Positions 18,320 to 58,562 of a stretch of 64,000 bases of DNA are shown piece after piece. Position 1 is the first letter of the stretch; every line of letters starts with the position of its first letter. This DNA is from an uncultured Methylophaga sp. (GTDB lineage Bacteria > Pseudomonadota > Gammaproteobacteria > Nitrosococcales > Methylophagaceae): contig NZ_CAMYKO010000004.1 of assembly GCF_947259025.1 (NCBI RefSeq), positions 372,001 to 436,000 on the forward strand, read 5' to 3'. A program made the position numbers and the translations under genes. The notes beneath the pieces are model-generated. The model was not told where the DNA came from and did not search any database. It worked only from the letters and a program-made list of their open reading frames with translations.

Positions 18320-18378
18320 TGGTGCCCAGGGCCGGAATCGAACCGGCACGGCCGCAAGGCCGAGGGATTTTAAGTCCC
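18320..18378 (-). pseudogene. 3' half of the host tRNA-Leu(UAA) gene
   Basis: Read on the minus strand this runs from the anticodon loop (GGGACTTAAAATC) through the variable arm, an intact T arm (GCCGGTTCGATTCCGGC) and acceptor CCTGGGC to ACCA. The 5' half is missing; after the 13-bp core the sequence is element DNA. Its partner half is at 58,522-58,562. The two join across the core into a complete 87-nt tRNA-Leu with paired acceptor (GCCCAGG/CCTGGGC) and anticodon stem (AGGGA/TCCCT). Confidence 0.93.
18366..18378 (+). repeat. attL core (13-bp direct repeat)
   Basis: GATTTTAAGTCCC is repeated exactly at 58,522-58,534. It covers the anticodon loop and one stem side of tRNA-Leu(UAA), so the integrase crossed over at an anticodon-loop site. 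This marks the left junction of the 40-kb element. The remaining bases up to the integrase at 18,514 hold the arm-type repeat but no gene. Confidence 0.92.
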
Positions 18379-18482
18379 CCAATTTGAATCCTACCAAATC
18401 GTAATAGCTTGTAACAATCCTTGTTCTGGCTTACTATGACTCATATTAAATCGTATTAAGGCATACCTAGTTGTAGTCTGTT

Positions 18483-18501
18483 TGCTACCTATCTGTTACC
18501 T
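18483..18501 (+). repeat. Putative integrase arm-type site, left copy
   Basis: TGCTACCTATCTGTTACCT recurs with one mismatch at 58,441-58,459, in direct orientation, just inside the other end of the element. Short repeats flanking both att cores are typical integrase arm-binding sites. The function is inferred from position alone. Confidence 0.55.
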
Positions 18502-18513
18502 AATTCGACCTTC

Positions 18514-19731
18514 ATGACTAGAAAAATAACTATAAGCCAAAAATCTGTTGAAGCGCTTCCAATAACGGGGAAGCAAGTAGATTATTGGGATTCAAAGCTT
18601 ACAGGTTTTGGCGTTAGGGTTTCACCTGGTGGAACCAAGTCATATTTTTATACGGGTCGCCTTGATGGTAGACAGGTTCGTTGTAGCATAGGTAAGAATC
18701 AAATATTCAAGGCCGAGGCAGCCAGGCGAAAAGCCCTGGAGTATGCAGGCCAGTTAGCATCCGGAATTGATCCCAGAAAAAAAAGAGCTGAAGGTGTTTC
18801 TTTCGGGGTGTTGCTTGAGGAGTACATTGATTATTGCCGTAGAAGGGGCGTGGTCAGCACCAAACAGATAGAAAACACTTTAAGAAGAAATATTGAAAAA
18901 GGCTATCCCTCAATATGGAATAAGCCAGTATTGAGTATTTCAGACGATGACTGCATGAAAGTCATCAGGAAGCTAACCAGTAAAGAAAAGCTTAGAACAG
19001 CTGATAGAGTTCGCTCCTACATAAAGAGTGCGTTTACATACGCAATAAATTCGAAATCCAACACGCTTGCCTCTCAGTCCGTCCAGGATATTGGGGTTAC
19101 AGTTAATCCAGTAGCACAAATGAAAAAAATAGTTGGATCAAGTAACCCCAAACAAAATGCACTGAGCGCTTCTGAACTCAAGACATACTTCAAACATGTC
19201 AGTCAATTGCCAGAGCCCACAAAATCATTGATGACACTCCATCTGTTAACAGGTGGTCAACGTCAATCGATGCTGCAAAGGGTATTGATTGATGACATTG
19301 ATATGGATGCGCAAGTCATGACTTTGTATGATCGCAAGGGGCAGAGGCATAAACCAGAAATTCACATAGTCCCTTTGCTGGACAGTGCGGTTGAGTGCAT
19401 CAAAAAAATCACTGCTGGACCATATATATTCTCTTGCGATGGCGGTATAACACCAGTTAACACGGATTACTTCAACAGCAATGCTAAGAAGATCTTTGAA
19501 AAAATGTTCCCTGAAGATCAGATGGGCAAAGGTAAATACTCTGCAGGGATTATTAGATCAACCGTGGAGACACGTCTTTTAGCGAAGCCCTACCATGTTA
19601 GTAGTGATATTTTAGCGAGCTTATTAAGTCATGGCCGAGGTGGCGTTCAACAAAAGCACTACCAGCATTATGATTTTTATGATGAGAAACTTCAGGCTCT
19701 GCACATGCTTGAAAGAATGGTCAATGGATAA
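18514..19731 (+). CDS. int: Tyrosine recombinase integrase, P4-like with DUF4102 domain
   Basis: 405 aa. The N-terminal DUF4102-type arm-binding domain (ISQKSVEALPITGKQVDYWDSKL, GFGVRVSPGGTKSYFY) precedes the core-binding domain and catalytic domain. Catalytic blocks: the box I arginine in LTGGQRQSML, the lysine in YDRKGQ, box II IIRSTVETRL, LLSHGRGG, and the nucleophile in HYQHYDFYDEK. The box II histidine is replaced, as I believe occurs in a DIRRTxET-type subgroup. It sits beside attL and is almost certainly the enzyme that inserted the element. Confidence 0.92.
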   Translation: MTRKITISQKSVEALPITGKQVDYWDSKLTGFGVRVSPGGTKSYFYTGRLDGRQVRCSIGKNQIFKAEAARRKALEYAGQLASGIDPRKKRAEGVSFGVLLEEYIDYCRRRGVVSTKQIENTLRRNIEKGYPSIWNKPVLSISDDDCMKVIRKLTSKEKLRTADRVRSYIKSAFTYAINSKSNTLASQSVQDIGVTVNPVAQMKKIVGSSNPKQNALSASELKTYFKHVSQLPEPTKSLMTLHLLTGGQRQSMLQRVLIDDIDMDAQVMTLYDRKGQRHKPEIHIVPLLDSAVECIKKITAGPYIFSCDGGITPVNTDYFNSNAKKIFEKMFPEDQMGKGKYSAGIIRSTVETRLLAKPYHVSSDILASLLSHGRGGVQQKHYQHYDFYDEKLQALHMLERMVNG

Positions 19732-20291
19732 TGCCTAGCGTTAACAACATCATGGAGTCAGCACTAGAGTTTTTAGGTCAGTTTGACGAAGCTCTCAAAA
19801 GTCCAGGGCGAGATTACAAAGATCTTTGCTTCATCGATTACAGCATGGGTTTGGTTGGTAACCATTACTTGACGGTCAGAGACTCCACCAAGATAAACGA
19901 AGATGCTCTGCAATCGTTAATCTCAGAGGTTGAGAGCAACATTCTGGCATACGATACATGCGTAGAGCTTTTTGAGAGGCTTGCGCGAAAAAACCTACGT
20001 ATACCCATGCCTCTTGTTGACACCATTTCAAAAATGGCCAGAAACGATTTAAAGAGGCCCACCCCCAGGGGGCGAAAAACTAAATACTATCAACATAGGA
20101 TAATCCGTTCGGCAATAGGCCACCTGGCATCAGAATATGAGATGCCGATTTACCATTCATCCGATAAAGATTCGGTTTGTTCGGTGGTCAAGGAGGCGCT
20201 AGAACGACTAGGCATCTACTTAAGCTACGACCAATTGGTTGATATCTATAAAGGCAAAACACAAACAAGAAAGCCACCCGGAACGTCATAA
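19731..20291 (+). CDS. Unknown protein coupled to the integrase
   Basis: 186 aa; I do not recognise it. Its ATG overlaps the integrase stop (TAATG), so it is translationally coupled and probably serves integration or excision. The protein is soluble and mixed alpha-helical, with a basic patch (MARNDLKRPTPRGRKTKYYQHR, about residues 105-126) that could bind DNA. No known motif is visible. Confidence 0.7.
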   Translation: MPSVNNIMESALEFLGQFDEALKSPGRDYKDLCFIDYSMGLVGNHYLTVRDSTKINEDALQSLISEVESNILAYDTCVELFERLARKNLRIPMPLVDTISKMARNDLKRPTPRGRKTKYYQHRIIRSAIGHLASEYEMPIYHSSDKDSVCSVVKEALERLGIYLSYDQLVDIYKGKTQTRKPPGTS

Positions 20292-20317
20292 TTTCGCAGC
20301 TCAGACTAATCCAAATT

Positions 20318-20357
20318 TAATACGAGCTAATACGAGCTAATACGAGTTAATACGTCG
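20318..20357 (+). repeat. Four tandem 10-bp repeats before the AlpA-like gene
   Basis: The unit TAATACGAGC is repeated at 20,318, 20,328, 20,338 (last base T) and 20,348 (TAATACGTCG). A period of about one helical turn suggests a protein-binding array. The inverse motif TCGTATTA also occurs at 18,451-18,458, next to attL. It is likely a site for the AlpA-like factor or integrase. Confidence 0.65.
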
Positions 20358-20447
20358 AAGGGGGACTATTCACTATATGTACCCCCCTGATATTAAATTG
20401 GAGTTGTGGCGTAATTGAGCACAAGTTGAACGTGTGGAGGGGATGTT

Positions 20448-20651
20448 ATGTCACAGCCAAATCGCTTGCCAAAAATGCTCACCCAGGAGGAAGTTGCGTC
20501 CTATCTGGGTAGGTCTAAACATTGGTGCGAAAAAGCCAGATACCAGGGTTATGGGCCCAACTATATCAAGATGGGACGACACGTAAGGTATCTGGAAGAA
20601 GATGTTTTATCTTACCTTGAGAGTTGTAAGGTGGTTCATCATGTCGATTAG
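20448..20651 (+). CDS. AlpA/excisionase-like HTH protein
   Basis: 67 aa winged-helix/MerR-like DNA-binding protein: LTQEEVASYLGRSKHWCEKAR, then YIKMGRHVRYLEEDVLSYLES. This matches the AlpA / HTH_17 family, which includes excisionases and integrase regulators. It probably directs excision of the element. The array of 10-bp repeats lies 90 bp upstream. It overlaps the HNH-type gene by 11 bp. The ribosome site GGAGGGGATGTT is good. Confidence 0.85.
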   Translation: MSQPNRLPKMLTQEEVASYLGRSKHWCEKARYQGYGPNYIKMGRHVRYLEEDVLSYLESCKVVHHVD

Positions 20652-21267
20652 ATTTCCAAAGATGATGAACCCTTCTACTGGGAAGCCCTTTGTTCGAGGT
20701 GATCCTTGGCCATTTGATTGTGATCATAAAGAATATGGTCATGGTCATATTCATTTTGGTAAAAAGTTTGATCAATATCTAACTGCAGTTCAAGACTCAT
20801 GCTTTAGAGGGTTCGCCTTCATGAGCTGGGCTGATGAGGCCAGAATTCAAAGGAATCGTAATAAGAACAAAGAAGGCATGAGGCTGAGATCTATATCTGA
20901 AGATTTAGACACACGCCTTCATCGGAGGGCGGCAAAAAAATACAATGAACTAGCCAAGCATCGCTCTCCAAATTTTACATTTGAAGAGTTTTTCAAAGCC
21001 CTGATGAAGGCGTGGGTGGGATGCCGAGATATACCGGGTGATTCCGGAGAGTTTGGCAAACTATGCCCTGTCCTTGGGGTGCCAATGTATCTAAATGCTG
21101 GATTTGAAGAAAGAGATAGCTCAGTAAGCATACATCGTATCAATAATGAACATAATTATAGTCCCAGCAATGTGATGCTTATATCTTACAGAGCTAATAG
21201 ATTAATTAGTGATGCAAGTTTTGATGAGATTCAATCTGTTTATCAGTTTATGCTGAGACACCAATAA
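20641..21267 (+). CDS. HNH-type nuclease-like protein
   Basis: 208 aa from the ATG at 20,641, which is preceded by AAGGTGG; the frame is open further upstream but overlaps the AlpA-like gene more deeply. The C-terminal third resembles phage and plasmid HNH endonucleases: LCPVLGVPMYL, then SIHRINNEHNYSPSNVMLIS and YRANRLISDA. The expected Asp-Arg is His-Arg here, so activity is uncertain. Its role in the element is unknown. Confidence 0.65.
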   Translation: MSIRFPKMMNPSTGKPFVRGDPWPFDCDHKEYGHGHIHFGKKFDQYLTAVQDSCFRGFAFMSWADEARIQRNRNKNKEGMRLRSISEDLDTRLHRRAAKKYNELAKHRSPNFTFEEFFKALMKAWVGCRDIPGDSGEFGKLCPVLGVPMYLNAGFEERDSSVSIHRINNEHNYSPSNVMLISYRANRLISDASFDEIQSVYQFMLRHQ

Positions 21268-21292
21268 TCGATCCTTATGCAATAAACGATAT

Positions 21293-21946: not shown

Positions 21947-21961
21947 TACAAGGAGAGAAAT

Positions 21962-22567: not shown

Positions 22568-22570
22568 TCA

Positions 22571-24118: not shown

Positions 24119-24119
24119 C

Positions 24120-25095: not shown

Positions 25096-25101
25096 AATGT
25101 T

Positions 25102-31717: not shown

Positions 31718-33880
31718 TCATACAATCTCTCTTTGAATCTCTCTATCCATGTTGATTTCTAAAGGTCTGCGGTCGGTGTACTGAATGACGTCTTTAACTT
31801 CTACATTTAGTTCTGCAACGTCGGCAATATCTCTCGACATCTGTTTTATGTATGGGTTTCCATCCACGCTCACTTCATAAGCATCATAGTGCTCTTTGAT
31901 GTGGTTCATTGCCTTTAACAATGACTTCGGATCTGTTTTGTTTAAATCAACCTCACGCCCGTTATCAGTAAAGATCAGTTCCCCTTGTTCGTTGCTGACA
32001 TAAGTTGGTTCACCTGGTGCGTCAACTGATACGCTCTTAGGTATGAGCTTTGGTGATTTATCTCTGCTTGCCTGAAAGGTAATAACATCCCGTGCATCGG
32101 CGTTACCCTGTTTCGATTCTTCAATAACAAACGAATGAAAGTCTCTAGATTTGAAAAGTGACTGAACCGCTTCGAACTTCTCTTTGTATTCGTTTCTGAT
32201 TTCGTCCAATGTTTCCTGAAACCGGCTTTCCATGACACCTTTTAGGTGCCGTTTGTAATCAGTTATAGACTGAGCAATTCTCTCCCTCATCTTCTTCTGA
32301 TCGTCCTCAGACATAGTCTCTAGTTCAGCCTCTTTCTTGGCGGAAAGCGAGAAATCTTTTAACTTCGTATTGAGCTCCCTATTGAATTGTCTGCGCGTTT
32401 CTCCAATCTCGGTGGTTCGCTCAGAGTTAAGCTTTTCTTTATTTAGGGATACGGACTCTTTATTAGAGATAAACTCATTTTCGAGCTGCTGCCTCTTCCC
32501 TATTATCCCTTGATACCACTCACCCTCTTGTTGGCTCCTATTTTTGTGTTGATTTGACTCGAACTCATAGAAGGTCTGAAGTTGTTTTTCTGATAGCCCT
32601 GGACGCACCTTTGGCAATGCTTTTCTATCGTTCTCTAAATCTGGGTTATTAGGATCAAGTGCCCGACTTACCTCCGCCCATGACCCATTAGTTGATAGCG
32701 TTTCATCAAGGTTTTTTACGCGTGCCCAGCTTCCAAGTTCTCTTGCGCTAATCCTATCTTGAGGGTTGGCGTTATGTTTAATGACGTAGCCGTTGCCTTG
32801 TCTCGCAATGTGCGAATTAAACTTGTTGTTGAGCATGTCATTAAGACCCGCCCAGGAAGCTTCGTAATCGGATGAAGATATGTATTGCTGCATCTCCAGA
32901 GATATGACCTCTTGCGCAAACAACTTGAACCCACGGCCGTTGTGTGAAAAACGCTCTTTATCAACGTGGCGGTGGTCGGCAGTCTCAATAAATTTATTGA
33001 AAGCCGGTCCATTTCTGGATAATTCCTTGTCGAGTGTTTTGATGCCTGCCCAATCACCTAAGACTGATGATTTTGCTCTCTCTGCTTGATGACCACTATT
33101 TGACGCAATAACATAGCCAGAGCCATATTTCTCTAGATGGCTGTCATGTTTATCATCAAGCAGGCTGGCTAACCCGTTCCAGTCAGGAGAGTCCTGCTTC
33201 AGATAGAGTTTGATGTCTTCAGCGATGACAGTTTGTGCATATCTGGAGTAGCTGACCATTCCAGACCTGAGCTCAAAATCTCTTACACTCTGACTAATAA
33301 TGCCACGCTCATGAGGTCGCTCGAATTTTTTCAGGTATTTCGTTTTGGCAAGCCCATCCTCACCTACCACCACTCTTCCATTGTCGTCTCGGACATAGTC
33401 GGCTAAGTGTGTGTAAGTTATATCCCAGCCTTGTTTGTACTCAATCTGTTTTACTGCTTCGTGAATTGTGGTGAATGACCACTCAATATGAAGCGATCGC
33501 CCAGTCTCCGGGTGAACTCGGTTTAGAACGCCGTGTATGTGAATGGAGTCTGAATCATAGTGGACTGAGCATACAATCTGATGTCCGTTTTCAGAGCGAT
33601 CTGCCCCAATCTTTTGAAGATATATGTCCACCGCCTCTTTTAGCTGTTCATCATTAGGTTTTTCGTGTGCTGGCCAAGACAATACGAAGTGATGAATAGG
33701 GTCTTTAACATTAGGGTTTTGAGTGGCCTCAGCTTTCATCTCGGCGTGCGCTGTTTCAATACTAAGAACATTATTTGCCCATACGTGGCCTTTGGTTTTT
33801 TCATGGTCAGTTGTGTAGGCGATAATATCCTTAAAACTTGAACGACCATCGCGACGTTGAGTTGGTATTTTCCCAATCAT
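31718..33880 (-). CDS. MOBP-family relaxase, RP4 TraI-like
   Basis: 720 aa. The nuclease domain aligns with RP4 TraI: catalytic Tyr22 in SFKDIIAYTTD, Ser68 in FVLSWPAHEKP and the metal-binding HYDSDSIHIHGVLNRVHP (His107, His114, His116). Two similar segments of about 90 aa follow (residues about 215-300 and 330-410, each with a DWAGIKTLD-like or SWARVKNLD-like end), resembling TraI middle domains. A coiled region leads to a C-terminal LPD7-like domain (GELIFTDNGREVDL). It nicks oriT and carries the strand into the recipient. Confidence 0.9.
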   Translation of the reverse strand: MIGKIPTQRRDGRSSFKDIIAYTTDHEKTKGHVWANNVLSIETAHAEMKAEATQNPNVKDPIHHFVLSWPAHEKPNDEQLKEAVDIYLQKIGADRSENGHQIVCSVHYDSDSIHIHGVLNRVHPETGRSLHIEWSFTTIHEAVKQIEYKQGWDITYTHLADYVRDDNGRVVVGEDGLAKTKYLKKFERPHERGIISQSVRDFELRSGMVSYSRYAQTVIAEDIKLYLKQDSPDWNGLASLLDDKHDSHLEKYGSGYVIASNSGHQAERAKSSVLGDWAGIKTLDKELSRNGPAFNKFIETADHRHVDKERFSHNGRGFKLFAQEVISLEMQQYISSSDYEASWAGLNDMLNNKFNSHIARQGNGYVIKHNANPQDRISARELGSWARVKNLDETLSTNGSWAEVSRALDPNNPDLENDRKALPKVRPGLSEKQLQTFYEFESNQHKNRSQQEGEWYQGIIGKRQQLENEFISNKESVSLNKEKLNSERTTEIGETRRQFNRELNTKLKDFSLSAKKEAELETMSEDDQKKMRERIAQSITDYKRHLKGVMESRFQETLDEIRNEYKEKFEAVQSLFKSRDFHSFVIEESKQGNADARDVITFQASRDKSPKLIPKSVSVDAPGEPTYVSNEQGELIFTDNGREVDLNKTDPKSLLKAMNHIKEHYDAYEVSVDGNPYIKQMSRDIADVAELNVEVKDVIQYTDRRPLEINMDREIQREIV

Positions 33881-34353
33881 TTTTCTGCCCTCGCAATGCG
33901 TGCAACGGCGTCAGTTGCTCTTCCAACAAGCGTTGATGTCTCAAGCAAAATGGAAGCTGTTTTATCTGAGTTGTCTTTGCCCTCTTGTGACTCAAGAAAG
34001 ACATGCTTAATCATTCCGGTCATCCTGTTGGTCTTGGCGATCAAGTCTCTCAATGTCTTGATGGTTTTCATGTCCATCTGACTGTGAACCGGATAACCGA
34101 TTACTCTCTTCCTGGTGTAATTACTGATCGTCAGTCCACTCATTTCAGAGTCTTCAGTAATTTCGGCGTACTCTTGCTCGCTAACACGAACAGTAATGAC
34201 CTTTGTTCTATTGCCAGTGTTGGTAGCTTTTGGCTTCTTTGCATCTTTCTTTTCTTTAAGCAAATACTGTTTTTCACGAAGCCTGTTGATCTGGTCAGCT
34301 ATTATTTCGAGCGTTAAATCATCGTTATCGTAATCGTTCTTATCGACTTCCAT
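33877..34353 (-). CDS. MobC/TraJ-like relaxosome protein (RHH)
   Basis: 158 aa. An RHH-like segment (KVITVRVSEQEYAEITEDSEMSGLTISNYTRKRVIG) is followed by the helical DLIAKTNRMTGMIKHVF region of mobilization proteins. It overlaps the relaxase start by 4 nt. In related systems this protein binds oriT and loads the relaxase. The predicted oriT begins about 45 bp upstream of its start. Confidence 0.82.
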   Translation of the reverse strand: MEVDKNDYDNDDLTLEIIADQINRLREKQYLLKEKKDAKKPKATNTGNRTKVITVRVSEQEYAEITEDSEMSGLTISNYTRKRVIGYPVHSQMDMKTIKTLRDLIAKTNRMTGMIKHVFLESQEGKDNSDKTASILLETSTLVGRATDAVARIARAEK

Positions 34354-37026: not shown

Positions 37027-37224
37027 ATGGCAACAGAATGTGAAATCGAATTAGCTGGATCAGAGAGGATCTCATACTTCGTTATTACTGTTCATGATGT
37101 ATACCGCAGTTACCAGGTCGATATGATGTTTGATGAATTCAGTAAGGCGGAAAAATACGCCAAAGATAAAGGCTGGGTCATTACTAATGACAAATCCGGC
37201 AGTCGTCCCGGGGTGTCAGTATGA
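37027..37224 (+). CDS. Small unknown protein, first gene of the RM operon
   Basis: 65 aa, not recognised. Beta-rich sequence (ISYFVITVHDVYRSYQVDMMF), then a helix (KAEKYAKDKGWVI). It overlaps the methyltransferase start by 4 nt (ATGA). It has no HTH, so it is unlikely to be a typical control protein. It could modulate the methyltransferase. Confidence 0.6.
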   Translation: MATECEIELAGSERISYFVITVHDVYRSYQVDMMFDEFSKAEKYAKDKGWVITNDKSGSRPGVSV

Positions 37225-38957
37225 CGGACACGGAAACAGCAGCCTCAATTAATCATGCCAGGGCTTTCATTCATGAAATTATGAGCTCAATTTGGGCTGT
37301 TTATTCATCTATAACCCCAGAAAAATATCCGCATGGCATCCGTGAACTTTTTCCTCAAGTTGAGGCGCTTCCTGCTTTAAATAATGCTGAAAAGTTAGAT
37401 GCTCAAGCATTGGCCGAGAAAATGGCTTGCATGCCATTAATTGAATCCAGTTTTTTAATCGGGGAGCTTTATACAAAAAAACTTCCAAAAGATTACCGGG
37501 CGCAGTATGGGATCTATTTCACTCCTCCAGCATTAACAAGTCGGCTGCTTGATTCGCTTGAGGAAAATGGCGTTGACTGGTTGCATGTGAGCGCTATTGA
37601 TCCAGCATGTGGAGGTGGTGCATTTCTGAGCCCTATCGCGGCTCGCATGAGGACTTCGATGCATGATGCTGGTATGGATGATAATCAAGTCATCGAAAGC
37701 ATCTCTCGGCGGCTTCGAGGAAAGGAAATAGACCCATTCTCCGGATGGTTGTCACAGGTCTTCTTTGAGTTGTCGTTGATTGAAGAGATCTCTGCAACCG
37801 GGCGCACCGTTCCTGTTATTGTTGAAATTTGCGATACGCTTCGTTCTGAAGATGAGACCAAATACGATTTAGTCGTTGGTAATCCGCCTTATTCAAAAAT
37901 CAAATTAGATAAGGAAATGAGAGTACGTTATGAACGCTCTTTATACGGTCATGCAAACCTCTATGGCTTATTTACAGATAAAGCCTTCTCAATGCTGTCA
38001 GAAAGCGGCATCTTGGCCTTTGTTACTCCAACCTCGTTTTTGTCTGGCCAATACTTCAAAAATTTACGCAACCTGATTTCATCAGAGGGGAATATCCTTT
38101 CTATTGATTTTGTTGAAGCAAGAAAAGGCGTTTTTGATAGCGTTCTTCAAGAAACTTTGCTTGCCGTATTTACTAAGGATCCGACACACGATAATAAGTC
38201 AGTATCCTCAACCGTTCATGTTCGCCCTGGCAATGAATATGATGTTGAGGTAAATGGTCTGTTTAGTATTCCCTCTAAAAGCTCTGAGCCATGGTTCATC
38301 CCCAGAAATCGTGAGCATGAAAATGTATTAGCTAAGGCGCAGGCGTCACACTCTAAACTGGACGACTATGGCTATAAGGTGTCTACTGGTCCATTGGTCT
38401 GGAATCGACACAAAGAGCTACTTTCTTCAAAGAAAACTAAACATACCCTGCCGCTGATCTGGTCTGAAAGTGTCCTGAATGATGGTAGTTTTAAACATAA
38501 GGCCGAAAAGAAAAACCATGTTCCTTGGATTACCATCAAGGAGGAAAAAGATAACTGGTTAGTCGTAAGCCAGCCCTGCCTTGCTCTACAACGGACAACG
38601 GCAAAAGAGCAGCAATCGCGCCTTATTTGCGCAGTTATCCCGGAAGACTTTATTAATCAGCATGGAGGTGTTGTTATCGAAAATCACCTCAATATGATTA
38701 AACCCATTGAAGGCCGAGAGCAGTTGGTCGATCTGGAAGTGTTAAAAAGAATCTTGAAAAGTAGAACAGCAGACCTATTGTTTCGTGTTATGAATGGGTC
38801 AGTGGCTGTCTCAGCATACGAATTGGAAGCCCTTCTGCTTCCCCCTGTATCAAGAATAAAAAATATTGTAGAAGCTGTAAAAAGTGGCTTCAGTGAAGAA
38901 ACCATAGAAAAAATCATCAGGGAATCCTATGACCCAAAAATTACCAAAGCTGCCTAG
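37221..38957 (+). CDS. N6-adenine DNA methyltransferase (type II, BsuBI/PstI partner)
   Basis: 578 aa. SAM-binding motif I is DPACGGGAFLSP (about residue 130) and the catalytic motif IV is NPPYSK (about residue 221), so it is an N6-adenine methyltransferase of gamma-like order. The C-terminal part holds the target-recognition region (VSTGPLVWNRHKELL). It overlaps the endonuclease gene by 29 bp. The methylase should protect the host DNA from the following enzyme; the recognition site cannot be read from sequence alone. Confidence 0.9.
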   Translation: MTDTETAASINHARAFIHEIMSSIWAVYSSITPEKYPHGIRELFPQVEALPALNNAEKLDAQALAEKMACMPLIESSFLIGELYTKKLPKDYRAQYGIYFTPPALTSRLLDSLEENGVDWLHVSAIDPACGGGAFLSPIAARMRTSMHDAGMDDNQVIESISRRLRGKEIDPFSGWLSQVFFELSLIEEISATGRTVPVIVEICDTLRSEDETKYDLVVGNPPYSKIKLDKEMRVRYERSLYGHANLYGLFTDKAFSMLSESGILAFVTPTSFLSGQYFKNLRNLISSEGNILSIDFVEARKGVFDSVLQETLLAVFTKDPTHDNKSVSSTVHVRPGNEYDVEVNGLFSIPSKSSEPWFIPRNREHENVLAKAQASHSKLDDYGYKVSTGPLVWNRHKELLSSKKTKHTLPLIWSESVLNDGSFKHKAEKKNHVPWITIKEEKDNWLVVSQPCLALQRTTAKEQQSRLICAVIPEDFINQHGGVVIENHLNMIKPIEGREQLVDLEVLKRILKSRTADLLFRVMNGSVAVSAYELEALLLPPVSRIKNIVEAVKSGFSEETIEKIIRESYDPKITKAA

Positions 38958-40035
38958 TCTGGAGTTTATTGAAAATCGCCTGCCAGAGATTTTCCCTGAA
39001 GGTACTCAGAACAGAGCCTGGCACACGAATAATACAGCTGCAAAAACAATATTTGTGATGATGTATGTCGGTGCCGTTGAGGGAAACAATTACTGGCTTC
39101 GACCTGATCAAGTTACAAGAATGACGGATAAGCAATCTCAGCTTCTTTCTGATTCGGACAGGCTGGATTGGATTAAATTTTCAACAAAACAGATACCAAA
39201 GGACAAGCCAATTATTGGCCGGTGGTACGACATAAACAGTCGAGAACAAGTAAGGGATGATTGCATTAAGAATGCATTGATTGTCTCTGGCACTGTAGTG
39301 GTGAAGGATAACGTTCCAACGAGCTCTAGTGCTGGCAGGTATGCTTTAGAATCAGAATTTGTGGAATTGCTTAATCCCGATTTGAAGGGAAAAGACCTGG
39401 AGAAAGCAATTACTGAATGGTCAGAAAAGCACCTATCTAAAGCGGCCATTGTGAGGCAGCAAATTTTAAAACAAACGGCCAGTACAAAAGGGCATTCCCT
39501 TATCACTGTTCAACTGCCTAATGGTGATACCAGGAAACTAACTTTTGGGCCCAGTTCGGAAATAGCAAAAGCAGTGTGTGAGGATTTTGCCCCAAGGTTT
39601 CTATCTCACCCTGTGGTTATTTGGATTAGTGAAGGTGCCAACAAGGAAGATGTTAGAGACAAAGCCTTGGCAGACATGATTGGCATTAACATCGAGGCGG
39701 ATAAGCATTTGCCAGATATGATTTTAGCTGATCTTGAGGGGCATAAAACGTTAATTGTTTTTGTTGAAGTAGTGGCTTCAGATGGGCCGATCAATGAATC
39801 CAGAAAAAAGGCCCTGCTAAAGATTATCGAAGACGCGAAACTGCCGACTGAAGACGTGGCTTTCGTCACGGCTTATAAAGACAGAGAGAATAACGCGTTC
39901 AAGAAAACGTTCTCTGTACTGGCATGGCAATCTTTTGCGTGGTGCATGTCTGAGCCTGATAAGATAATTGCTTTGAGAGATGTATCAAATACACAAAGCA
40001 AACTTCAGGACTTAATGGCAAAAGGTAATGACTGA
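38929..40035 (+). CDS. BsuBI/PstI-type restriction endonuclease
   Basis: 368 aa. The C-terminal half carries the BsuBI_PstI_RE pattern: LPDMILADLEGHKTLIVFVEVVASDGPI with the PD...ExE-like catalytic residues, followed by RKKALLKII, FVTAYKDR and AWQSFAWCMSEPDKII. Members cut CTGCAG-like sites, but specificity here is unproven. It overlaps the methyltransferase gene by 29 bp and the next small gene by 8 bp. Confidence 0.88.
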   Translation: MTQKLPKLPSLEFIENRLPEIFPEGTQNRAWHTNNTAAKTIFVMMYVGAVEGNNYWLRPDQVTRMTDKQSQLLSDSDRLDWIKFSTKQIPKDKPIIGRWYDINSREQVRDDCIKNALIVSGTVVVKDNVPTSSSAGRYALESEFVELLNPDLKGKDLEKAITEWSEKHLSKAAIVRQQILKQTASTKGHSLITVQLPNGDTRKLTFGPSSEIAKAVCEDFAPRFLSHPVVIWISEGANKEDVRDKALADMIGINIEADKHLPDMILADLEGHKTLIVFVEVVASDGPINESRKKALLKIIEDAKLPTEDVAFVTAYKDRENNAFKKTFSVLAWQSFAWCMSEPDKIIALRDVSNTQSKLQDLMAKGND

Positions 40036-44378: not shown

Positions 44379-44624
44379 ATGCGGTTTGTTAGCGATCTTC
44401 TATCACAGATCATCATCACTCAGGTTGTTTTAGCTTTTTTATGTGTTCAGTTTGAGCTTGAAATGGTGTCTATTTTGGCGCTCCTGAGATTTTCATTTTT
44501 GTACACGATGTTTTTATTTATCTCTGTAGTGCTTGCTGTCTATTTGGCTTTTATCGTACTGAGAACGACTTTAAATGGTAGAGCGGGACAGCGTGTCGCT
44601 AATGAATCAAGGGAGTGGGAGTAA
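44379..44624 (+). CDS. Small two-helix membrane protein
   Basis: 81 aa with two hydrophobic helices (LLSQIIITQVVLAFLCVQF; FLYTMFLFISVVLAVYLAFIVL) and a charged tail. It is 3 bp after the secreted protein gene and overlaps the coupling-protein gene by 10 bp, so it is translated with it. Possibly an accessory of the coupling protein; not recognised. Confidence 0.65.
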   Translation: MRFVSDLLSQIIITQVVLAFLCVQFELEMVSILALLRFSFLYTMFLFISVVLAVYLAFIVLRTTLNGRAGQRVANESREWE

Positions 44625-46669
44625 TGTTTTGGAATATTTTGTATGAAAAGCTCAACACGCTACCGTTTGCTGCAGCCTCTGCCGGAGCTGTTATTGGTCA
44701 TGCTGTAGGCAGCGACCAACTCTATCAGCTTATGCGTTCAGAACATTATGCAGGTGTAATTTCAGGAATACCTACAGCAACTGATGTTATCAGTGCTTTA
44801 AATCCTATCGCCGGCGGGGTTCTAACGTATTGCCTTGCGAGGTCTACGGGGAATATTTTTAATTCTCATAAGGCCAGTTATCTAGCGCTACGACAATATT
44901 TATCATCAAGTGAGTTCTTTACTTATACGCTCCCAGAGTGGCCGGGTCATTCTGGGAATGGCGTTCGACTGGTTATTGGCGAGACTCACTCCGAAGATCC
45001 CTCGGATACAACTTTTTCTGACAATCCTGCGTGGTACACAATCAATGAGCGTGGTTTATATACGGGCATAATCGCTTATGGGGGCGTTGGTGCGGGTAAG
45101 ACTGCTACCTTCATGTACCCCTGTATTGAACAAATGTTTGAGTACAAAAGTAGTGATATTGAAAAGCGGGTAGGCGGCCTGGTGCTGGATGTTAAAGGAG
45201 ATTTCGTTGCTTATGTCGAAGAGCAGGCGATTAAACATGGTCGTGAAGCCAGTCTTCTAAAAATACGCCCTGGAAATGGTGTTAAGTGGAACCCAGTTCA
45301 TGAGCCAAATATGGATGTAAAGGTTCTTACATATAGGCTTCAAGGTATTTACGAGAATATGAATTCTTTTGACGAGGGCGCCAATGCTTGGGTTACCGAT
45401 GAAATGCTAAAACTTCTGGAGTGTGCCATTGGCATTATCCGCGTCTCGGAGGGTTATGTAACCATCAAGGCTGTTCATGAATTTATATTAAAAATCAGCA
45501 GGCCAGCAGCAGAGGAGGATGAGCGAGATATCAGGGATGGGTTGCCTCAAGACCCTAGGGCTCGACTGGATATGATTCGACATAAATATCGAAAACACTG
45601 TAAGAGTGAAGAACTTCGATCTGAACTTGGAGAGGGGGTAACGCCTGCAGCAAAAACCAAGGCCTGGATTGATGATATGAGTCAAAGAGAATTTGATGGT
45701 TACTATGATTATTTCGCTGATGAGTATTTAGGCAAGTCTGAACGAGAGAGAGATATTGCTAAGTCCGCACTCACTAAGATTACACAGCAATTCATGAGTC
45801 CGGTAATGCAGGACACATACTCTCCGGCAGAAGAAGATATAACATTCAAAGGTTTTGATGCCGTAATCGAAGATGGTGACATTGTTGCTTTAGACCTTGG
45901 TTCCACTAATGGTCCAATTGCGGGCGTGCTTGGAATTGCGCTGAAGCTTGCCTTTGAGAAAGCTGCACTTGCAAGGGTTGAGCGAGCCAAAAGAGATCCA
46001 TCTGTCAACACAGATAGAGTTTTAATGCTTGTTTGTGACGAGTATCAGCGGTTTGCATCTGCTGCTGGGAAGAGGTGTCCTGAAGGCGATGATGAGTTCT
46101 TCGCTCAATCCCGACAATCAAAATGCTTTCCCTTGCTCGCAACTCAGCAGCCCTCTTCTTTAATCAACTCGGTTGGCGAGAAAGCGGCGGTGAACATTAT
46201 GAACAACATCAGGACTAGGGTCGTCTTATCTATCTCAGCTGAAGATGATGCTGAAGACATAAGTCGAGGGCTGGGTAAACATGAAGTGAAGAAAAAAAGT
46301 GAGTCTGTTAATGAAAATTTCGATGGCGGGTTTAACCCTTTAACAAGCAAGGTTGAGGGCGGGAGTAGTGGTATGGGCAAGAGTGCCAGCTACAGCACTG
46401 AAAGAGATGTCCAAGTTTACCCTGAGCAGATAAGGGCACTAAGAATGGGTGAGGCTATCATTTCTGTCTTCGATGGTAGTGAGCTGCGCCCACCAAGAAA
46501 AGTCTTTCTTAAAACACACTTTATGCCGGACTTCTTTGAAGATATTTATGACAGCCCAAGGGAAATCCCTTGGAAGGAGCTTTACGAATGGCATTCCCTT
46601 GTAGGTAAGGATAAGTTTGATGCGCAGGCGGAATATAAGTCATTCAATAAAATTAGGTGGGCATTGTAA
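44615..46669 (+). CDS. VirD4/TraG-type type IV coupling protein
   Basis: 684 aa. After an N-terminal membrane region (PFAAASAGAVIGHAV; ISALNPIAGGVLTYCL), Walker A is GGVGAGKTATFMYP (about residue 155) and Walker B is LMLVCDEYQRFAS (about residue 470), followed by TQQPSSLINS. This is the ATPase that links a relaxosome to a mating pore. No VirB4-type or VirB11-type ATPase is found on the element, so it probably docks to a pore from another element. Confidence 0.88.
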   Translation: MGVMFWNILYEKLNTLPFAAASAGAVIGHAVGSDQLYQLMRSEHYAGVISGIPTATDVISALNPIAGGVLTYCLARSTGNIFNSHKASYLALRQYLSSSEFFTYTLPEWPGHSGNGVRLVIGETHSEDPSDTTFSDNPAWYTINERGLYTGIIAYGGVGAGKTATFMYPCIEQMFEYKSSDIEKRVGGLVLDVKGDFVAYVEEQAIKHGREASLLKIRPGNGVKWNPVHEPNMDVKVLTYRLQGIYENMNSFDEGANAWVTDEMLKLLECAIGIIRVSEGYVTIKAVHEFILKISRPAAEEDERDIRDGLPQDPRARLDMIRHKYRKHCKSEELRSELGEGVTPAAKTKAWIDDMSQREFDGYYDYFADEYLGKSERERDIAKSALTKITQQFMSPVMQDTYSPAEEDITFKGFDAVIEDGDIVALDLGSTNGPIAGVLGIALKLAFEKAALARVERAKRDPSVNTDRVLMLVCDEYQRFASAAGKRCPEGDDEFFAQSRQSKCFPLLATQQPSSLINSVGEKAAVNIMNNIRTRVVLSISAEDDAEDISRGLGKHEVKKKSESVNENFDGGFNPLTSKVEGGSSGMGKSASYSTERDVQVYPEQIRALRMGEAIISVFDGSELRPPRKVFLKTHFMPDFFEDIYDSPREIPWKELYEWHSLVGKDKFDAQAEYKSFNKIRWAL

Positions 46670-52398: not shown

Positions 52399-52444
52399 CG
52401 GCTTGTTAAAGCCATTATCGTTTTTAGCTACGTGTGGAGGGTTT

Positions 52445-53992
52445 ATGAAACCTTTTTTTAAATTCGGGGTGATTGATGCGGCGGTTACCCTATCAGCAAT
52501 GCTTTTAGTTGCATCTGTCACTTATGCAGATAGCGTTAACATCGGTGAAAACAACGAGGTAGCTTCTGAAGCTATTGGTATAGGAACCAATATGGTTGTG
52601 GGACCGGAGTTGATGCCAACAAATCCTTACCTTGAAGAGAATGAGTATTCTCAGGGGATTGGTTACAACTCCACTGTTTCTTATGGTGGAAATTTATTCG
52701 GCCGTGAATCACGAACTGCCGGTGGGAATATATTCGGTAATTATTCTAGTGGGGGAGGAACCTCGAATCTTTTTGGTAACTATCTTGATGGAAGGAATGG
52801 TTCAATTCTGATTGGTAATGACTCATATGGTAATAACGGCAACTGCCTGGGTGATCATTGTTATGCCGTGCTTGGTGATGCAATTGGTGACTACAGTAAA
52901 GTTACAGAACACAATGTAGTGTCATTTGGTAACTCTGATATTGACTTGCAACGTCGACTAACCAATGTTGCCGAAGGGGTTGATGCTACAGACGCTGTAA
53001 ATAAGGGGCAGATGGAGGGTTATGTCGCTTCAAAGATTGTAAACGAGGACGGCGTCGTAACTTTTAGCGATGGCGAGCCTATTTACGATACTGCAGCCTA
53101 TGAGTCCGACCTTGAAGACTGGCACTCCCAGGCGCCTCAAGAAGATAGTTTTTATTCGGATGAGCCGGATATATTTGATTTCGATGAACCTGAACCAGAA
53201 TATTCTGATTATTTTGACCCTGACACTGGTACGGTTGATCAAGCCGCCTATGACGCTGCTTACGATGAATGGATCATAAACGGCCTTGATTTTGAAGCTT
53301 ACGACTCAGCGTATCAGTCCTGGTATGAAAATGAATACACACCTGGCGTTGAGCAATACAACAACGCATATGCAGATTACCAGGCAGCTAATCCTGCTCC
53401 CAATCAGTTTGATGATGCTTACATTACCAGTGATGGATATTCCAGGGTTGCGAATATTGCAGACCCCGTTGAGTCTACAGATGCTGCTAACAAGCGTTAT
53501 GTTGATGAAAATGATCAGCGAGTCCTGTCAGAAGCACAGGAATATTCAGACGAAGGTGATAGACAGGTGTTATCAGAAGCGCAAGAATATTCAGACGAAG
53601 GTGATAGGCAGGTGTTGTCTTCTGCAAATTCATACACCGATGCGAGCGTAAGCCGTTCAAACGCTGCCAGCACTGCTTACACGGATAAGAAGTTTCAAGA
53701 GAGTATCTCTTACACTAACCAGCGTTTTGATGAATTAGATTCTCGAATCGATGAGCTAGAAAGTGAGTATTCATCTGCCATTGCAGAGGTTGCCGCCATG
53801 CCGATCCTTCCGGCAATGGTCAAAGGTGATTATACAATTGCTCTAGGAACGGGGTATTACAACAAAAAGGCAGCATTAGGCATGACTTTTGGTCATCAGT
53901 TTGATCATAGGTCACTTGTATATGGAGGGGTTTCCGCTTCAACCGGTGCAAAGCCAGTTCTTAGAGCTGGTGTCAGCTTTACTTTTCGTTAA
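52445..53992 (+). CDS. Trimeric autotransporter adhesin (YadA-like)
   Basis: About 515 aa from the ATG at 52,445 (GGAGGG upstream). A signal peptide is followed by head-like repeats rich in glycine and asparagine (GGNIFGNYSSGGG, SILIGNDSYGN), a YadA-type neck (LTNVAEGVDATDAVNKGQME), a highly acidic, tyrosine-rich segment (about residues 205-320), a second neck (VANIADPVESTDAANKRYVD), a coiled stalk with repeats of about 12 residues (LSEAQEYSDEGDRQ) and a C-terminal barrel anchor (GDYTIALGTGYYNKKAALGM...VSFTF). It should be an outer-membrane adhesin. Confidence 0.88.
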   Translation: MKPFFKFGVIDAAVTLSAMLLVASVTYADSVNIGENNEVASEAIGIGTNMVVGPELMPTNPYLEENEYSQGIGYNSTVSYGGNLFGRESRTAGGNIFGNYSSGGGTSNLFGNYLDGRNGSILIGNDSYGNNGNCLGDHCYAVLGDAIGDYSKVTEHNVVSFGNSDIDLQRRLTNVAEGVDATDAVNKGQMEGYVASKIVNEDGVVTFSDGEPIYDTAAYESDLEDWHSQAPQEDSFYSDEPDIFDFDEPEPEYSDYFDPDTGTVDQAAYDAAYDEWIINGLDFEAYDSAYQSWYENEYTPGVEQYNNAYADYQAANPAPNQFDDAYITSDGYSRVANIADPVESTDAANKRYVDENDQRVLSEAQEYSDEGDRQVLSEAQEYSDEGDRQVLSSANSYTDASVSRSNAASTAYTDKKFQESISYTNQRFDELDSRIDELESEYSSAIAEVAAMPILPAMVKGDYTIALGTGYYNKKAALGMTFGHQFDHRSLVYGGVSASTGAKPVLRAGVSFTFR

Positions 53993-54065
53993 ATGTAGCC
54001 TGCTTCTCGACTGAGGGTTAAATCCTCAGTCGGGAATTTCTTTTAGCGGTGCCATGGGGATATTC

Positions 54066-54197: not shown

Positions 54198-54331
54198 TAC
54201 CTCACTTTCTAAGGTGAAAGACTTGCGGTTTTGATTGCCCCATGATGGGTGGGCTGATAGACATATCTTTCGACAATTATGCATAATGTAATCATGAACT
54301 CTATATACACACCCATCTACCTGGGGCTGAA

Positions 54332-54550
54332 ATGAAGCCTAAAGGCATTACATTCAAGGTCCCCATGGATGAATACAAAGAATTAAAGCGGATCAGTGCT
54401 AAGAAAGGGGTTAGCATGAGCACTTTGATCAAGAATGAGCTCTATCTGATGATTGAAGATGGTTCACTTGAAGACAGAGAGCGCAGTAGTGTCATGCCTG
54501 GGGACGGCCCCTTCGATCCTTTCGATCCTTTTAAGGATTTCCCCGATTAA
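54332..54550 (+). CDS. RHH-type protein, paralogue of 54,066-54,197
   Basis: 72 aa. The RHH region (GITFKVPMDEYKELKRISAKKGVSMSTLIKNELY) is followed by an acidic proline-rich tail with a repeated FDPFDPF motif. It may control the adhesin or the convergent primase operon. The 134-bp gap before it holds no other gene. Confidence 0.65.
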   Translation: MKPKGITFKVPMDEYKELKRISAKKGVSMSTLIKNELYLMIEDGSLEDRERSSVMPGDGPFDPFDPFKDFPD

Positions 54551-54557
54551 TGCAAGC

Positions 54558-56006: not shown

Positions 56007-56015
56007 ATCCCCTCC

Positions 56016-57224
56016 TTAGGCTAGGTCGAGACCAACGTCAAGCTCTCTTTTTTGTGAGAGGGCATCCGAGCTGGGCAGCCTGGCTAGTGAGTTCAAGCGT
56101 TGCTTCTCCTGGTCAGACAGATGTGATGCTTCCTGATCTAACTGCTGAGTTTTGGTTGTTAGACCATCATCTCTTTCGAGAACTGTTAAATCCTTTTGCA
56201 TATTGAGCACAACAGATAGGTCGTCAGCACGGCTTTTGAATTGTTCATTACCAGATACTTTCAGCTTTACCCGACTTTCATTTTCAGCGATAGGCTTAAA
56301 TTTCTCTTGAGCATAAATCAGGCCCGCAGCAACACTTTTATTGTCTGTCATTACCATTTCAACGCTTTTACCTGTATCAATGAAAACCGCTTTACCTTCT
56401 TGATTATGGTGAACGCCAGGGTAAATTGTTGTATCTGGCTTACCCCTCATTAATTGTTCTTGAGAATACTCTTTGAGACGGACCTCAAAAGCATCCTCAA
56501 CAGGGTCGGTTTGCTGAGTTTTGTGCTGAACAAATTTTTCGAAATAATTGCCTTCAAATTCACGGGTGCCAGGGAATAACTGTTCTACAGAGTGAGAACT
56601 GCTATCAAACTCTGGAGAGGTTATGACGGGTATGTGCTGACCATTAGCTTCATAATCAATCACCTTCTGAGCGTCTGAGTTATCCTCCAAGGCTTGCTTA
56701 TGAAGGTAATCATCAAATGTTTCTGAGTGATCGTAAAGTGAATTGAGCTCATCTAGTTTTACTTGGAAGTGCTCCCTAATTTCTTCAGCTTTAGTTTGAT
56801 TCAAATTTGTAAGAAAACTCTTGTAGTCTGCTCTATCTTGTGCAGCTTTTTTCAGAAATTTACTTGCCTCGTCTTCACTCATCTCCGAAACGTTTTGATA
56901 AGCCTTGTCATAGTTTTCACGGTTGTTTAACTCACGCTCGATAGATGCGTCGATATCTTCAAGGGATTGTTGAAGCTCTTGCTCCAGCCTTTCCCTACCT
57001 ACCTTGAGGATTTGTGTATCTTGCATGTAGTCGAGTTGAAGCCTGTCCTTGAGCTTGTCCATGCCCTGACTCCAAGTTGCCTCAGTAGCATTTATAACTT
57101 CATCGTGGCTTTCGGCGGCTTCCTGAATCAAGGCTCCCCTAAGCTGTTGGTGGGCTGGCTTTGCACCGCCATCCAGGAACTCCTCGTTGTTCATCCGCTG
57201 CATCCATGAATCTTTACTACTCAT
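56016..57224 (-). CDS. Coiled-coil protein with LPD7-like domain
   Basis: 402 aa. Long helical, charged first half (residues about 40-200; LERELQQSLEDIDASIEREL-type coiled coil), then an LPD7-like segment (GKAVFIDTGKSVEMVMTDNKSVAAGLIYAQEKF). The same domain ends the relaxase (GELIFTDNGREVDL...). It is 9 bp upstream of the primase gene and in one operon with it. It may hold relaxase and primase together; this is inferred. Confidence 0.65.
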   Translation of the reverse strand: MSSKDSWMQRMNNEEFLDGGAKPAHQQLRGALIQEAAESHDEVINATEATWSQGMDKLKDRLQLDYMQDTQILKVGRERLEQELQQSLEDIDASIERELNNRENYDKAYQNVSEMSEDEASKFLKKAAQDRADYKSFLTNLNQTKAEEIREHFQVKLDELNSLYDHSETFDDYLHKQALEDNSDAQKVIDYEANGQHIPVITSPEFDSSSHSVEQLFPGTREFEGNYFEKFVQHKTQQTDPVEDAFEVRLKEYSQEQLMRGKPDTTIYPGVHHNQEGKAVFIDTGKSVEMVMTDNKSVAAGLIYAQEKFKPIAENESRVKLKVSGNEQFKSRADDLSVVLNMQKDLTVLERDDGLTTKTQQLDQEASHLSDQEKQRLNSLARLPSSDALSQKRELDVGLDLA

Positions 57225-57331
57225 TCCAATACTCCTAATTTATTAGTTGGTTCCAACAGCCTCCGCGAACTCTTAGTACGCATCTATGATTTTATCATTC
57301 TCACTTATGTTTGCGAATTTATTGGATTTTT

Positions 57332-57347
57332 GGACAGAATTCTGTCC
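57332..57347. promoter_or_regulatory. Perfect GGACAG palindrome before the primase operon
   Basis: GGACAGAATTCTGTCC is a perfect 16-bp palindrome about 110 bp upstream of the LPD7 gene. Half-copies of the same GGACAG box occur at six other element sites (30,694; 34,533; 43,424; 48,521; 52,332). Likely a binding site of an element-wide regulator. Confidence 0.7.
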
Positions 57348-57370
57348 TAAATTAGGAGTATCTATGTAAT

Positions 57371-57406
57371 ACATGTATTACATGTATTACATGTATTACA
57401 TGTATT
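57371..57406. repeat. Four tandem 9-bp ACATGTATT repeats
   Basis: Unit ACATGTATT repeated four times without gaps. The same core forms the palindrome upstream of parA (30,750-30,780). Tandem sites of this kind act as centromeres or operators for RHH partition proteins. The rest of the gap (57,225-57,452) holds no gene. Confidence 0.72.
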
Positions 57407-57452
57407 ATATTTGTAATATGTGAGATATCTGTCGCAGCTATGCGGGGTAATG

Positions 57453-58310
57453 TTATGTGTGCGAGAACACCTGCTCAAGGGTGTTTCTTCCAGTGAACTC
57501 CCTAGCCACAATCGTTCCAAACGACTGAGCAATCGTGAATGCCAGCCATAGGTCACCCCTGGTAAGGCTCTGCTCCTTATACCTTTCCTCAACCCTGGGA
57601 AATATTTTTAGATCTTTTTCAATCTTCATGAAGTCCTCATAACCTGAGACCTCAACAAAACGCTTGAGACCTTTTACTAGGTTGTGGCCAAGGCTTTTAG
57701 CCTCACTTTGTGATAAGCCTATCTTCAAAGCAATGAAGGACTTGATGAATATTTCTACGGCCATTCTGCTGTTAAGAATGGATCTTGGATCAGGTTTGTT
57801 TTGAGATAAAAGTTGAATGGCAGTTTTTAACTCTTGGCTGCCAGCAAAAAGAAGTTCTTTCCCGAAACCACTTATCTTGCCCGTCTTGGTTAGATCCTCC
57901 AGGCCATGAGCGTAGTCAACGCAGTCAGCCCAGAAAATTGTATATTTCCATAACTCATTATTCTCATTCATCAACTGAGCTTTAATGGGGGAAGGCATTT
58001 CTGCCAGAGAGTCGAGGGCGTTTAATTGAACCCTTCCGTATGAGAGTGGGATCGATATATCCCAAAACTCGCCATCGTAGAAGTAGACGGAATTGAACAA
58101 ACTTCCGATTTCGTTGGCGCCTGGTTTGGACCGTTTTTCAAACCATTTAAATATTCTGTCAGCAGTGCTTGAAGATATTGAGACAGATACGTTGTGGTCA
58201 GTCGAGTATCTTCGTAGCGCTTCCCAAGGGCGTTTCTTGTGTTCTAACCCTGAGCTACTAAATTCAGAATTTAGCTTGAGAAGGTATTCTTCGAGTGCCG
58301 AATCATCCAT
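57453..58310 (-). CDS. Unknown cargo protein, HEPN-like C-terminus possible
   Basis: 285 aa from the ATG at 58,310 (MDDSALEEYLLKL); the frame is open further upstream but runs into the antisense of the tRNA. The C-terminal part (NSRMAVEIFIKSFIALKIGLSQSEAKSLGHNLVKGL) is a helical bundle recalling HEPN-like cargo proteins, without the R-x4-6-H motif in full. It is a probable defence or addiction passenger; function not assignable. Confidence 0.6.
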   Translation of the reverse strand: MDDSALEEYLLKLNSEFSSSGLEHKKRPWEALRRYSTDHNVSVSISSSTADRIFKWFEKRSKPGANEIGSLFNSVYFYDGEFWDISIPLSYGRVQLNALDSLAEMPSPIKAQLMNENNELWKYTIFWADCVDYAHGLEDLTKTGKISGFGKELLFAGSQELKTAIQLLSQNKPDPRSILNSRMAVEIFIKSFIALKIGLSQSEAKSLGHNLVKGLKRFVEVSGYEDFMKIEKDLKIFPRVEERYKEQSLTRGDLWLAFTIAQSFGTIVAREFTGRNTLEQVFSHT

Positions 58311-58345
58311 GCCGTAAGAAGAAATAGGTGTATTGTGTTGAGGAG

Positions 58346-58432
58346 TGGTGCCCGGGGCCGGAATCGAACCGGCACGGCCTAACGGCCGCAAGATTTTAAG
58401 TCTTGTGTGTCTACCAATTTCACCACCCGGGC
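58346..58432 (-). tRNA. tRNA-Leu(UAA), complete, element-borne
   Basis: 87 nt. Acceptor GCCCGGG/CCCGGGC, D arm TGGTGAAATTGGTAGACACA, anticodon stem CAAGA/TCTTG around loop CTTAAAA (anticodon UAA), long variable arm, T arm GCCGGTTCGATTCCGGC, encoded ACCA end. It lies inside the element 90 nt from attR and on the same strand as the split host gene, so it can replace the lost isoacceptor. Confidence 0.95.
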
Positions 58433-58440
58433 AGGCGGCT

Positions 58441-58459
58441 TGCTACCTATATGTTACCT
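58441..58459 (+). repeat. Putative integrase arm-type site, right copy
   Basis: TGCTACCTATATGTTACCT, one mismatch from 18,483-18,501 and in the same orientation. It lies between the element tRNA and attR. Read with the left copy it suggests paired integrase-binding arms. Confidence 0.55.
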
Positions 58460-58521
58460 TGAAAATAAATATAATTCTTAATAAGTTGATTTTTATATGT
58501 TTTTTCCGGGGCGGTGAAGAG

Positions 58522-58534
58522 ATTTTAAGTCCCT
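58522..58534 (+). repeat. attR core (13-bp direct repeat)
   Basis: GATTTTAAGTCCC, identical to 18,366-18,378. The sequence on the element side (GGGGCGGTGAAGA) does not rebuild the tRNA 3' half, so integration destroyed the host gene rather than restoring it. Confidence 0.92.
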
Positions 58535-58562
58535 TGTGTCTACCAATTTCACCACCTGGGCA
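58522..58562 (-). pseudogene. 5' half of the host tRNA-Leu(UAA) gene
   Basis: Read on the minus strand: GCCCAGGTGGTGAAATTGG..., the acceptor, D arm and anticodon stem up to the loop, ending at the att core. The remainder is at 18,320-18,378. This stub still has the host promoter in front of it. Confidence 0.92.

Follow-up and report, generated by a model that had tools for sequence, protein, structure and literature searches.

The stretch of DNA analysed here, hereafter the window, comprises 64,000 nucleotides of a contig (NZ_CAMYKO010000004.1) of an uncultured Methylophaga sp. and contains an integrated element of 40 kb that divides the gene of a leucine tRNA, tRNA-Leu(UAA), in two. We consider it very probable that the integrase of this element splits the host gene and that the element brings a built-in replacement, a complete tRNA-Leu(UAA) that would be read from the promoter of the host gene and be needed as long as the element is integrated.

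The split of the host gene can be read directly from the sequence. It lies on the minus strand and is interrupted within the anticodon loop, its two halves being separated by approximately 40 kb:

58521–58561, minus strand: orphan 5′ half of the host tRNA-Leu(UAA), including the core (attachment site attR)
18320–18378, minus strand: displaced 3′ half of the host tRNA-Leu(UAA), including the core (attL), 100% identical over positions 29–87
18366–18378: left copy of the 13-bp core GATTTTAAGTCCC
58521–58533: right copy of the 13-bp core GATTTTAAGTCCC
58574–58603, minus strand: promoter-like site of the host tRNA-Leu (CTGAAA, 18 bp, TATAAT), 10 of 12 consensus matches
18379–58520: the inserted element, 40,155 bp including one copy of the core, with flanks that are contiguous in relatives

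The original prediction, made from the letters alone, had placed the left half correctly and the right half one base too high (58,522–58,562). Its claim that the halves rejoin over the 13-bp core into a perfect tRNA holds: ARAGORN classifies the 87 nt as tRNA-Leu(UAA), all stems (acceptor, D, anticodon, variable, and T) are paired, and the sequence is 100% identical to the intact gene of a congener (G003). The empty site, whose absence from relatives had been named beforehand as evidence against integration, is present in all four relatives tested (G013, G003, G015, and G002). When the window flanks were joined by script across the rejoined tRNA, the intact locus of each of these genomes matched them as one piece, with 79–87% identity over 306–349 bp, of which the left flank makes up only ca. 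46 bp. As also predicted, the element does not restore the target gene; past the core, attR runs into sequence other than the 3′ half of the tRNA. ARAGORN also makes a call at 18320–18400, but this joins the 3′ half to element sequence, its acceptor stem is broken, and it is not a gene. No host terminator accompanying the displaced 3′ half was found in a scan of 18200–18520, and none is claimed. Just inside attR, positions 58505–58520 are nearly complementary to the 5′ end of the host tRNA and pair with the orphan half in one fold.

The replacement tRNA and the putative integration apparatus are situated at the two ends of the element:

58346–58432, minus strand: complete element-borne tRNA-Leu(UAA) (Rfam, 60.6 bits; ARAGORN)
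58440–58459, plus strand: right arm-type repeat TTGCTACCTATATGTTACCT, with the unit G[CT]TACCT occurring twice at a distance of 11 bp
18482–18501, plus strand: left arm-type repeat TTGCTACCTATCTGTTACCT, ahead of the integrase gene
18514–19731, plus strand: tyrosine integrase of 405 amino acids with an arm-binding domain (Pfam)

The complete tRNA begins 88 nt inside the core, downstream of the host promoter and in the direction of the host gene, in agreement with the distance of about 90 nt given in the original prediction. It is 87% identical to the host tRNA-Leu(UAA) (BLAST) and differs from it in the anticodon stem (CAAGA/TCTTG in the element tRNA vs. AGGGA/TCCCT in the host tRNA). The 20-bp double repeat is restricted within the window to the two sites flanking the core (18482 and 58440), with one mismatch between the copies, and these repeats are probably the arm-type sites of the integrase.

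The same layout recurs in other bacteria. It was searched for as a pattern of two tRNA-Leu(UAA) 5′ parts separated by 81–141 nt, which matches once in the window and in none of 100 shuffles, over IMG/VR and 84,980 species genomes. The results of the genome scan cover 80 of 99 matching stretches, 79 of which were classified by an ARAGORN script as 54 tandem intact pairs, 22 cases of a half followed by a complete tRNA and 3 of a complete tRNA followed by a half. One of the 22 (L256), in which the upstream copy is interrupted by repeats, was removed, leaving 21 genome loci, which we take to belong to Gammaproteobacteria (12), Alphaproteobacteria (6), Betaproteobacteria (2), and Bdellovibrionaceae (1). 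A third pattern match in G098 contained no tRNA according to ARAGORN. Together with four of nine viral stretches from IMG/VR and the window itself, 26 loci show the layout; in 14 of the 26, the copies of the longest word repeated in the interval are spaced at 11 bp. A displaced 3′ half could be located in 11 genomes of the 21, in 10 of them on the same contig, at a distance of 8.0–10.3 kb in seven of these ten and of 2.5, 14.6, and 50 kb in the others; none of the 11 was called tRNA-Leu by ARAGORN. In nine layout genomes the element tRNA alone matched the 3′ pattern of the tRNA, and in one (G087) there was no match.

Base pairing was compared in 12 sets (window included), not all independent because two Vreelandella elements are near-copies. 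Counting G-U pairs, the rejoined host halves form all 7 acceptor pairs in every set, with the anticodon stem fully paired (5/5) in 11, and the element tRNAs likewise have 7/7 acceptor pairs in all 12 and 5/5 anticodon pairs in 11. A hybrid of host 5′ half and element 3′ half would lose acceptor pairs in 11 of the 12. One type of element, carrying the same tRNA, follows host halves that differ between L223 and L173. In all 26 loci, the element tRNA and the split gene have different anticodon stems; the three commonest host stems account for 16 of the 26 host stems and 1 of the 26 element stems (Fisher p 1.3e-5, for a stem set picked after inspection and with related elements that are not independent). 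In two Ruegeria loci (L246, 2600–2860; L316, 3600–3860) an element-like arm motif precedes the split half, as if a second element had split the tRNA of a first.

These data bear on a conventional explanation, in which an ordinary island restored its target and a small insertion then moved the restored tRNA away, so that the complete tRNA would be an older, rebuilt gene and the 5′ half a later duplication. The tRNA-Leu(UAA) gene is indeed a hotspot for islands among the 57 genomes considered from the family of the window; G017 and G062, for example, possess an intact gene accompanied by several 3′ fragments, which is the conventional outcome of elements that rebuild the tRNA. However, the core and the arm repeats of the window are located exactly at and after the 5′ half, the same order is found in 25 other loci and in the intact attachment site of a viral contig (see below), and the gene of the congener is matched by the rejoined halves, not by the complete copy. 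This explanation is, therefore, largely refuted and in our view extremely improbable. In the same family, a pattern for the intact gene, applied to whole genomes without ARAGORN, detected no tRNA-Leu(UAA) in the 99%-complete G066, nor in G009 and G033, and the CLC flank had no match in four relatives without a clear tRNA-Leu(UAA). One stretch of G066 (L158, 1–20000) contains eight partial tRNA-Leu(UAA) 3′ matches in series.

The integrase allows the layout to be approached independently of the pattern. A search of genome contigs with the window integrase matched 32 stretches, none of them confirmed as a relative, and relatives were first reached through the layout pattern. The window integrase is 44–46% identical to the integrases of five layout elements (two from Vreelandella, two from Marinobacter, one from Halomonas), each of which adjoins the 3′ half and points inward; over all seven layout elements compared other than that of the window, the range is 44–47%. 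Searches by integrase then yielded 5 of 369 genomes of the class at ≤1e-60, the window's own included, and, at ≤1e-100, 2 of 390 genomes of the order and 4 of 275 of the family of Vreelandella. Seven distinct genomes were obtained at ≤1e-100, and the replacement layout is present in six of them (that of the window, G417, G941, G081, G092, and G098). Two of these (G417 and G941) and a viral contig (L326) were found through the integrase, and all three possess the replacement layout; G417 and G941, like the seventh genome (G700), lie outside the genomes mapped from the 21 loci of the pattern. Among more distant relatives, G246 (tRNA-Lys) and G355 (tRNA-Met) appear to rebuild the tRNA conventionally, and G137 (tRNA-Phe) shows a 3′ half only, on a short contig. 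In the integrase tree, the elements with replacement are not proven to form one clade, and the window has a long branch. The carriers in Saccharospirillum, Roseobacter, and Salinivibrio have integrases without a BLASTP match to that of the window at 1e-3, and the replacement design thus arose or spread more than once. Both orphan halves of G417 contain unusual bases (GGTATAC; a pair of the variable stem is lost), possibly a sign of decay after takeover.

In the viral contig L326 (1–18208) the sequence recurs after 8,997 bp, with an exact match over 8,334 of the 9,211 bases of overlap; the contig may represent a packaged concatemer or a tandem insertion. It contains an intact attachment site of the circular form (attP), in which the tRNA is followed by an arm pair, the core, a second arm pair, and the integrase. 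With the element of Marinobacter ELB17 it has in common the integrase (96%), the region of tRNA and attachment site (92%), and, in addition, a single stretch of 210 bp, with no other BLASTN alignment. Since the two elements share these parts and little else, the module seems to move between elements. The Vreelandella element L306, the only one annotated in detail, encodes a VapE-type helicase-primase and a terminase large subunit and is, judged by these genes, satellite-like.

Decoding of UUA requires the tRNA-Leu(UAA) isoacceptor, and the host genes of the window contain 61 UUA codons out of 5,885 in 15 open reading frames. A second intact tRNA-Leu(UAA), which according to the original prediction would remove the dependence on the element, was found neither by BLAST nor by an Rfam search in the assembly (2.70 Mb, 8 contigs, 99.88% complete), and ARAGORN, applied to all 38 tRNA loci from Rfam, recognized five tRNA-Leu, i.e., CAA, UAG, CAG, GAG, and the single UAA of the element. 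Because it is the sole copy found, the element tRNA is probably the only UUA decoder of the cell in the integrated state. The predicted requirement for this tRNA stands in this respect, but not as a permanent need: on precise excision the halves would be joined to a perfect host tRNA again, and the need is thus confined to the integrated state.

The sequence of events that we propose would start with the insertion of the element into the anticodon loop by its tyrosine integrase. The 3′ half is found at attL, the promoter together with the 5′ half at attR, and, given the short core, no tRNA is rebuilt. Instead, the element itself contains a complete tRNA-Leu(UAA) beside attP, just outside the arm-type repeats, and integration places it no more than about 90 bp from the orphan 5′ half. 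As it is then close to, and in the same direction as, the host gene, read-through from the host promoter should produce it, and RNase P would cut the useless leader off the transcript. In the excised circle the integrase gene, attP, and the tRNA would adjoin. The changed anticodon stem suggests self-immunity, i.e., it may prevent the integrase from attacking the tRNA that the element carries. Directly downstream of the element tRNA and on the same strand lies a protein gene without known function (57453–58310), which might share the captured promoter.

The capture of the promoter, the read-through and the processing are inferred from the sequence only. Capture, as originally predicted, fits the positions: the TATAAT of the host promoter-like site (10/12) ends 12 bp ahead of the orphan 5′ half, and on the tRNA strand the 88-bp interval contains no terminator-like site and no promoter-like site of 9/12, the best reaching 8/12. 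The same split and replacement could also be combined with a promoter of the element tRNA's own, its place behind the host promoter being incidental to its adjacency to attP, which we regard as rather unlikely. In the excised circle the element tRNA would otherwise be without a known promoter, and the tRNA of phage Fionnbharth is described as having a strong promoter of its own (PubMed Central article PMC10865867). On the other hand, none of the 26 loci has a promoter-like site of at least 10/12 just before the element tRNA, and the mean score there is no better than that of shuffled letters, in a scan of little power, as only 1 of 25 host upstream stretches reaches 10/12.

This low power is one of several points that weigh against a replacement read from the host promoter and required by its host. 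The results of RNA folding are contradictory and were not used: from one start of the read-through RNA the element tRNA folds correctly, but in folding from the tRNA end the orphan host half of the window takes the acceptor strand of the element tRNA (P 0.91), and the proper acceptor stem has P <0.5 in 15 of the 26 loci (in L175 the tRNA end is poorly placed). The pattern scan required the same direction and close spacing, so that only the cases found through the integrase test the layout, and G700, of the same integrase clade, rebuilds its tRNA conventionally. The tRNA list of the genome also lacks tRNA-Trp, tRNA-Ile(GAU), and tRNA-Ala(UGC), and the assembly thus misses some tRNA genes. Moreover, Salinivibrio (G084) possesses a second intact tRNA-Leu(UAA), and the dependence is, consequently, not universal. 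The carried tRNA might then be passive cargo, or serve translation of the element, in a host with another tRNA-Leu(UAA) in an assembly gap, and UUA is somewhat more used in the element genes (125 of 8,830 codons, 24 open reading frames). However, 19 of 23 congeners have one full-length match of at least 89% and none has two, and in the 20 of 21 layout genomes in which the 3′ pattern of the tRNA matched, Salinivibrio is the sole case of an intact copy besides that of the element, leaving 19 without (copies outside the pattern would be missed by this count). A hidden second copy is unlikely in an assembly of this completeness, and the cargo explanation as a whole seems very improbable.

Replacement of the split tRNA by an element-borne copy read from the host promoter remains our preferred explanation, and the remaining genes indicate what kind of element employs it:

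31718–33880, minus strand: MobA/VirD2-type relaxase (Pfam)
33877–34353, minus strand: NikA-like mobilization protein
44615–46669, plus strand: TraG/TraD-type coupling protein

Integrative mobilizable elements carry an integrase, a MobA-type relaxase, a NikA-like protein, and a coupling protein. With its integrase and relaxase the window element reads as one of these, differing from them in the replacement tRNA beside attP and in additional genes for TrfA-like, DnaB-like, and ParA-like proteins. It does not qualify as a temperate phage: mobilization genes are present, and none of the phage structural families was found at the Pfam cut-off among the 18 element proteins scanned, a subset of the genes. 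Its G+C content is mostly 42–47%, against ca. 53% in the right flank. No close relative was detected in plasmids with the window integrase (at most 25% identity among the matches listed, 20 of 126 records) or with the relaxase (ca. 31% over at most 43% of the query among 20 of 4,335 records), nor in phages with the Vreelandella integrase (at most 28% among 20 of 27 records). The gene after the integrase (19731–20291) is unlike the gene at the same place in Vreelandella, as judged by BLASTP only.

The principle of splitting a tRNA gene and replacing it is already published as tRNA-dependent lysogeny in mycobacteriophages and other actinobacteriophages (Guerrero-Bustamante and Hatfull, 2024; PMC10865867). 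As in that study, we find a tyrosine integrase, an attachment site (attB) in a tRNA gene, a short core (theirs 8–17 bp) that does not rebuild the tRNA, a carried tRNA that has the isotype of the lost one and takes its place, putative pairs of arm sites around the core and related elements that do rebuild the tRNA (here G700). No other copy of the disrupted tRNA was found in an assembly that misses some tRNA genes, and the element tRNA would accordingly be essential. The window element is not filed under this heading because it is not a phage. The published cases are phages of Actinobacteria with tRNA-Lys, tRNA-Ile2, or tRNA-Leu(CAA), whereas ours are a mobilizable island and small elements in Proteobacteria with tRNA-Leu(UAA); the tRNA of Fionnbharth overlaps another gene, whereas the one described here lies at the edge of attP, in line with the host promoter. 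In Sinorhizobium meliloti two prophages likewise disrupt a tRNA-Leu mid-gene and carry a foreign replacement (at most 80.6% identical to that of the host; PMC11476347), but these are phages in tRNA-Leu(UAG), and a position behind the host promoter is not described in the passages concerned. A companion paper reports prophages in tRNA-Leu(UAA) that do rebuild the tRNA (PMC12429752). Islands of the Islander type (PMC4383910) share the tyrosine integrase, the attachment in the anticodon loop and the displaced 3′ fragment, but Islander, as described there, relies on a restored target gene, which is not restored here. The open-licence literature in PubMed Central, consulted mostly by abstract openings, yielded no satellite or mobilizable element of the same design, which is not proof of absence.

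Apparently new, therefore, are the use of this principle by a mobilizable island that is not a phage and by small elements that are in part satellite-like, and the location of the tRNA at the edge of attP, by which integration would drop it behind the host promoter. A strategy described only recently in phages is thus extended to mobile elements of other kinds and to a second bacterial phylum, with built-in expression of the spare part, and the horizontal replacement of essential tRNA genes that exist in one copy does not seem to be rare. The design also points to a class of islands that methods based on restored tRNA genes would tend to overlook, and possibly to an integration module of broad host range, of interest as a genetic tool. 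It is quite possible, if somewhat short of probable, that the integrase gene, attP, and a self-sufficient tRNA-Leu(UAA) together constitute a transferable module that, by bringing a whole tRNA, is independent of the body of the host tRNA, promoter-capturing, self-immune through its changed anticodon stem and, as orphan halves decay, eventually a permanent UUA decoder, and that it is traded between satellites and mobilizable islands across the Proteobacteria, targeting a near-universal anticodon loop.

Further genes of the window element encode HipA, PemK/MazF-type, and AbiEi-like proteins. Its cargo includes a BsuBI/PstI-type restriction enzyme and a type II methyltransferase (37221–40035). 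Also inside the element lies a gene for a YadA-like trimeric autotransporter (52403–53992), whose product matches a tail-fibre family of T7 below the Pfam cut-off.

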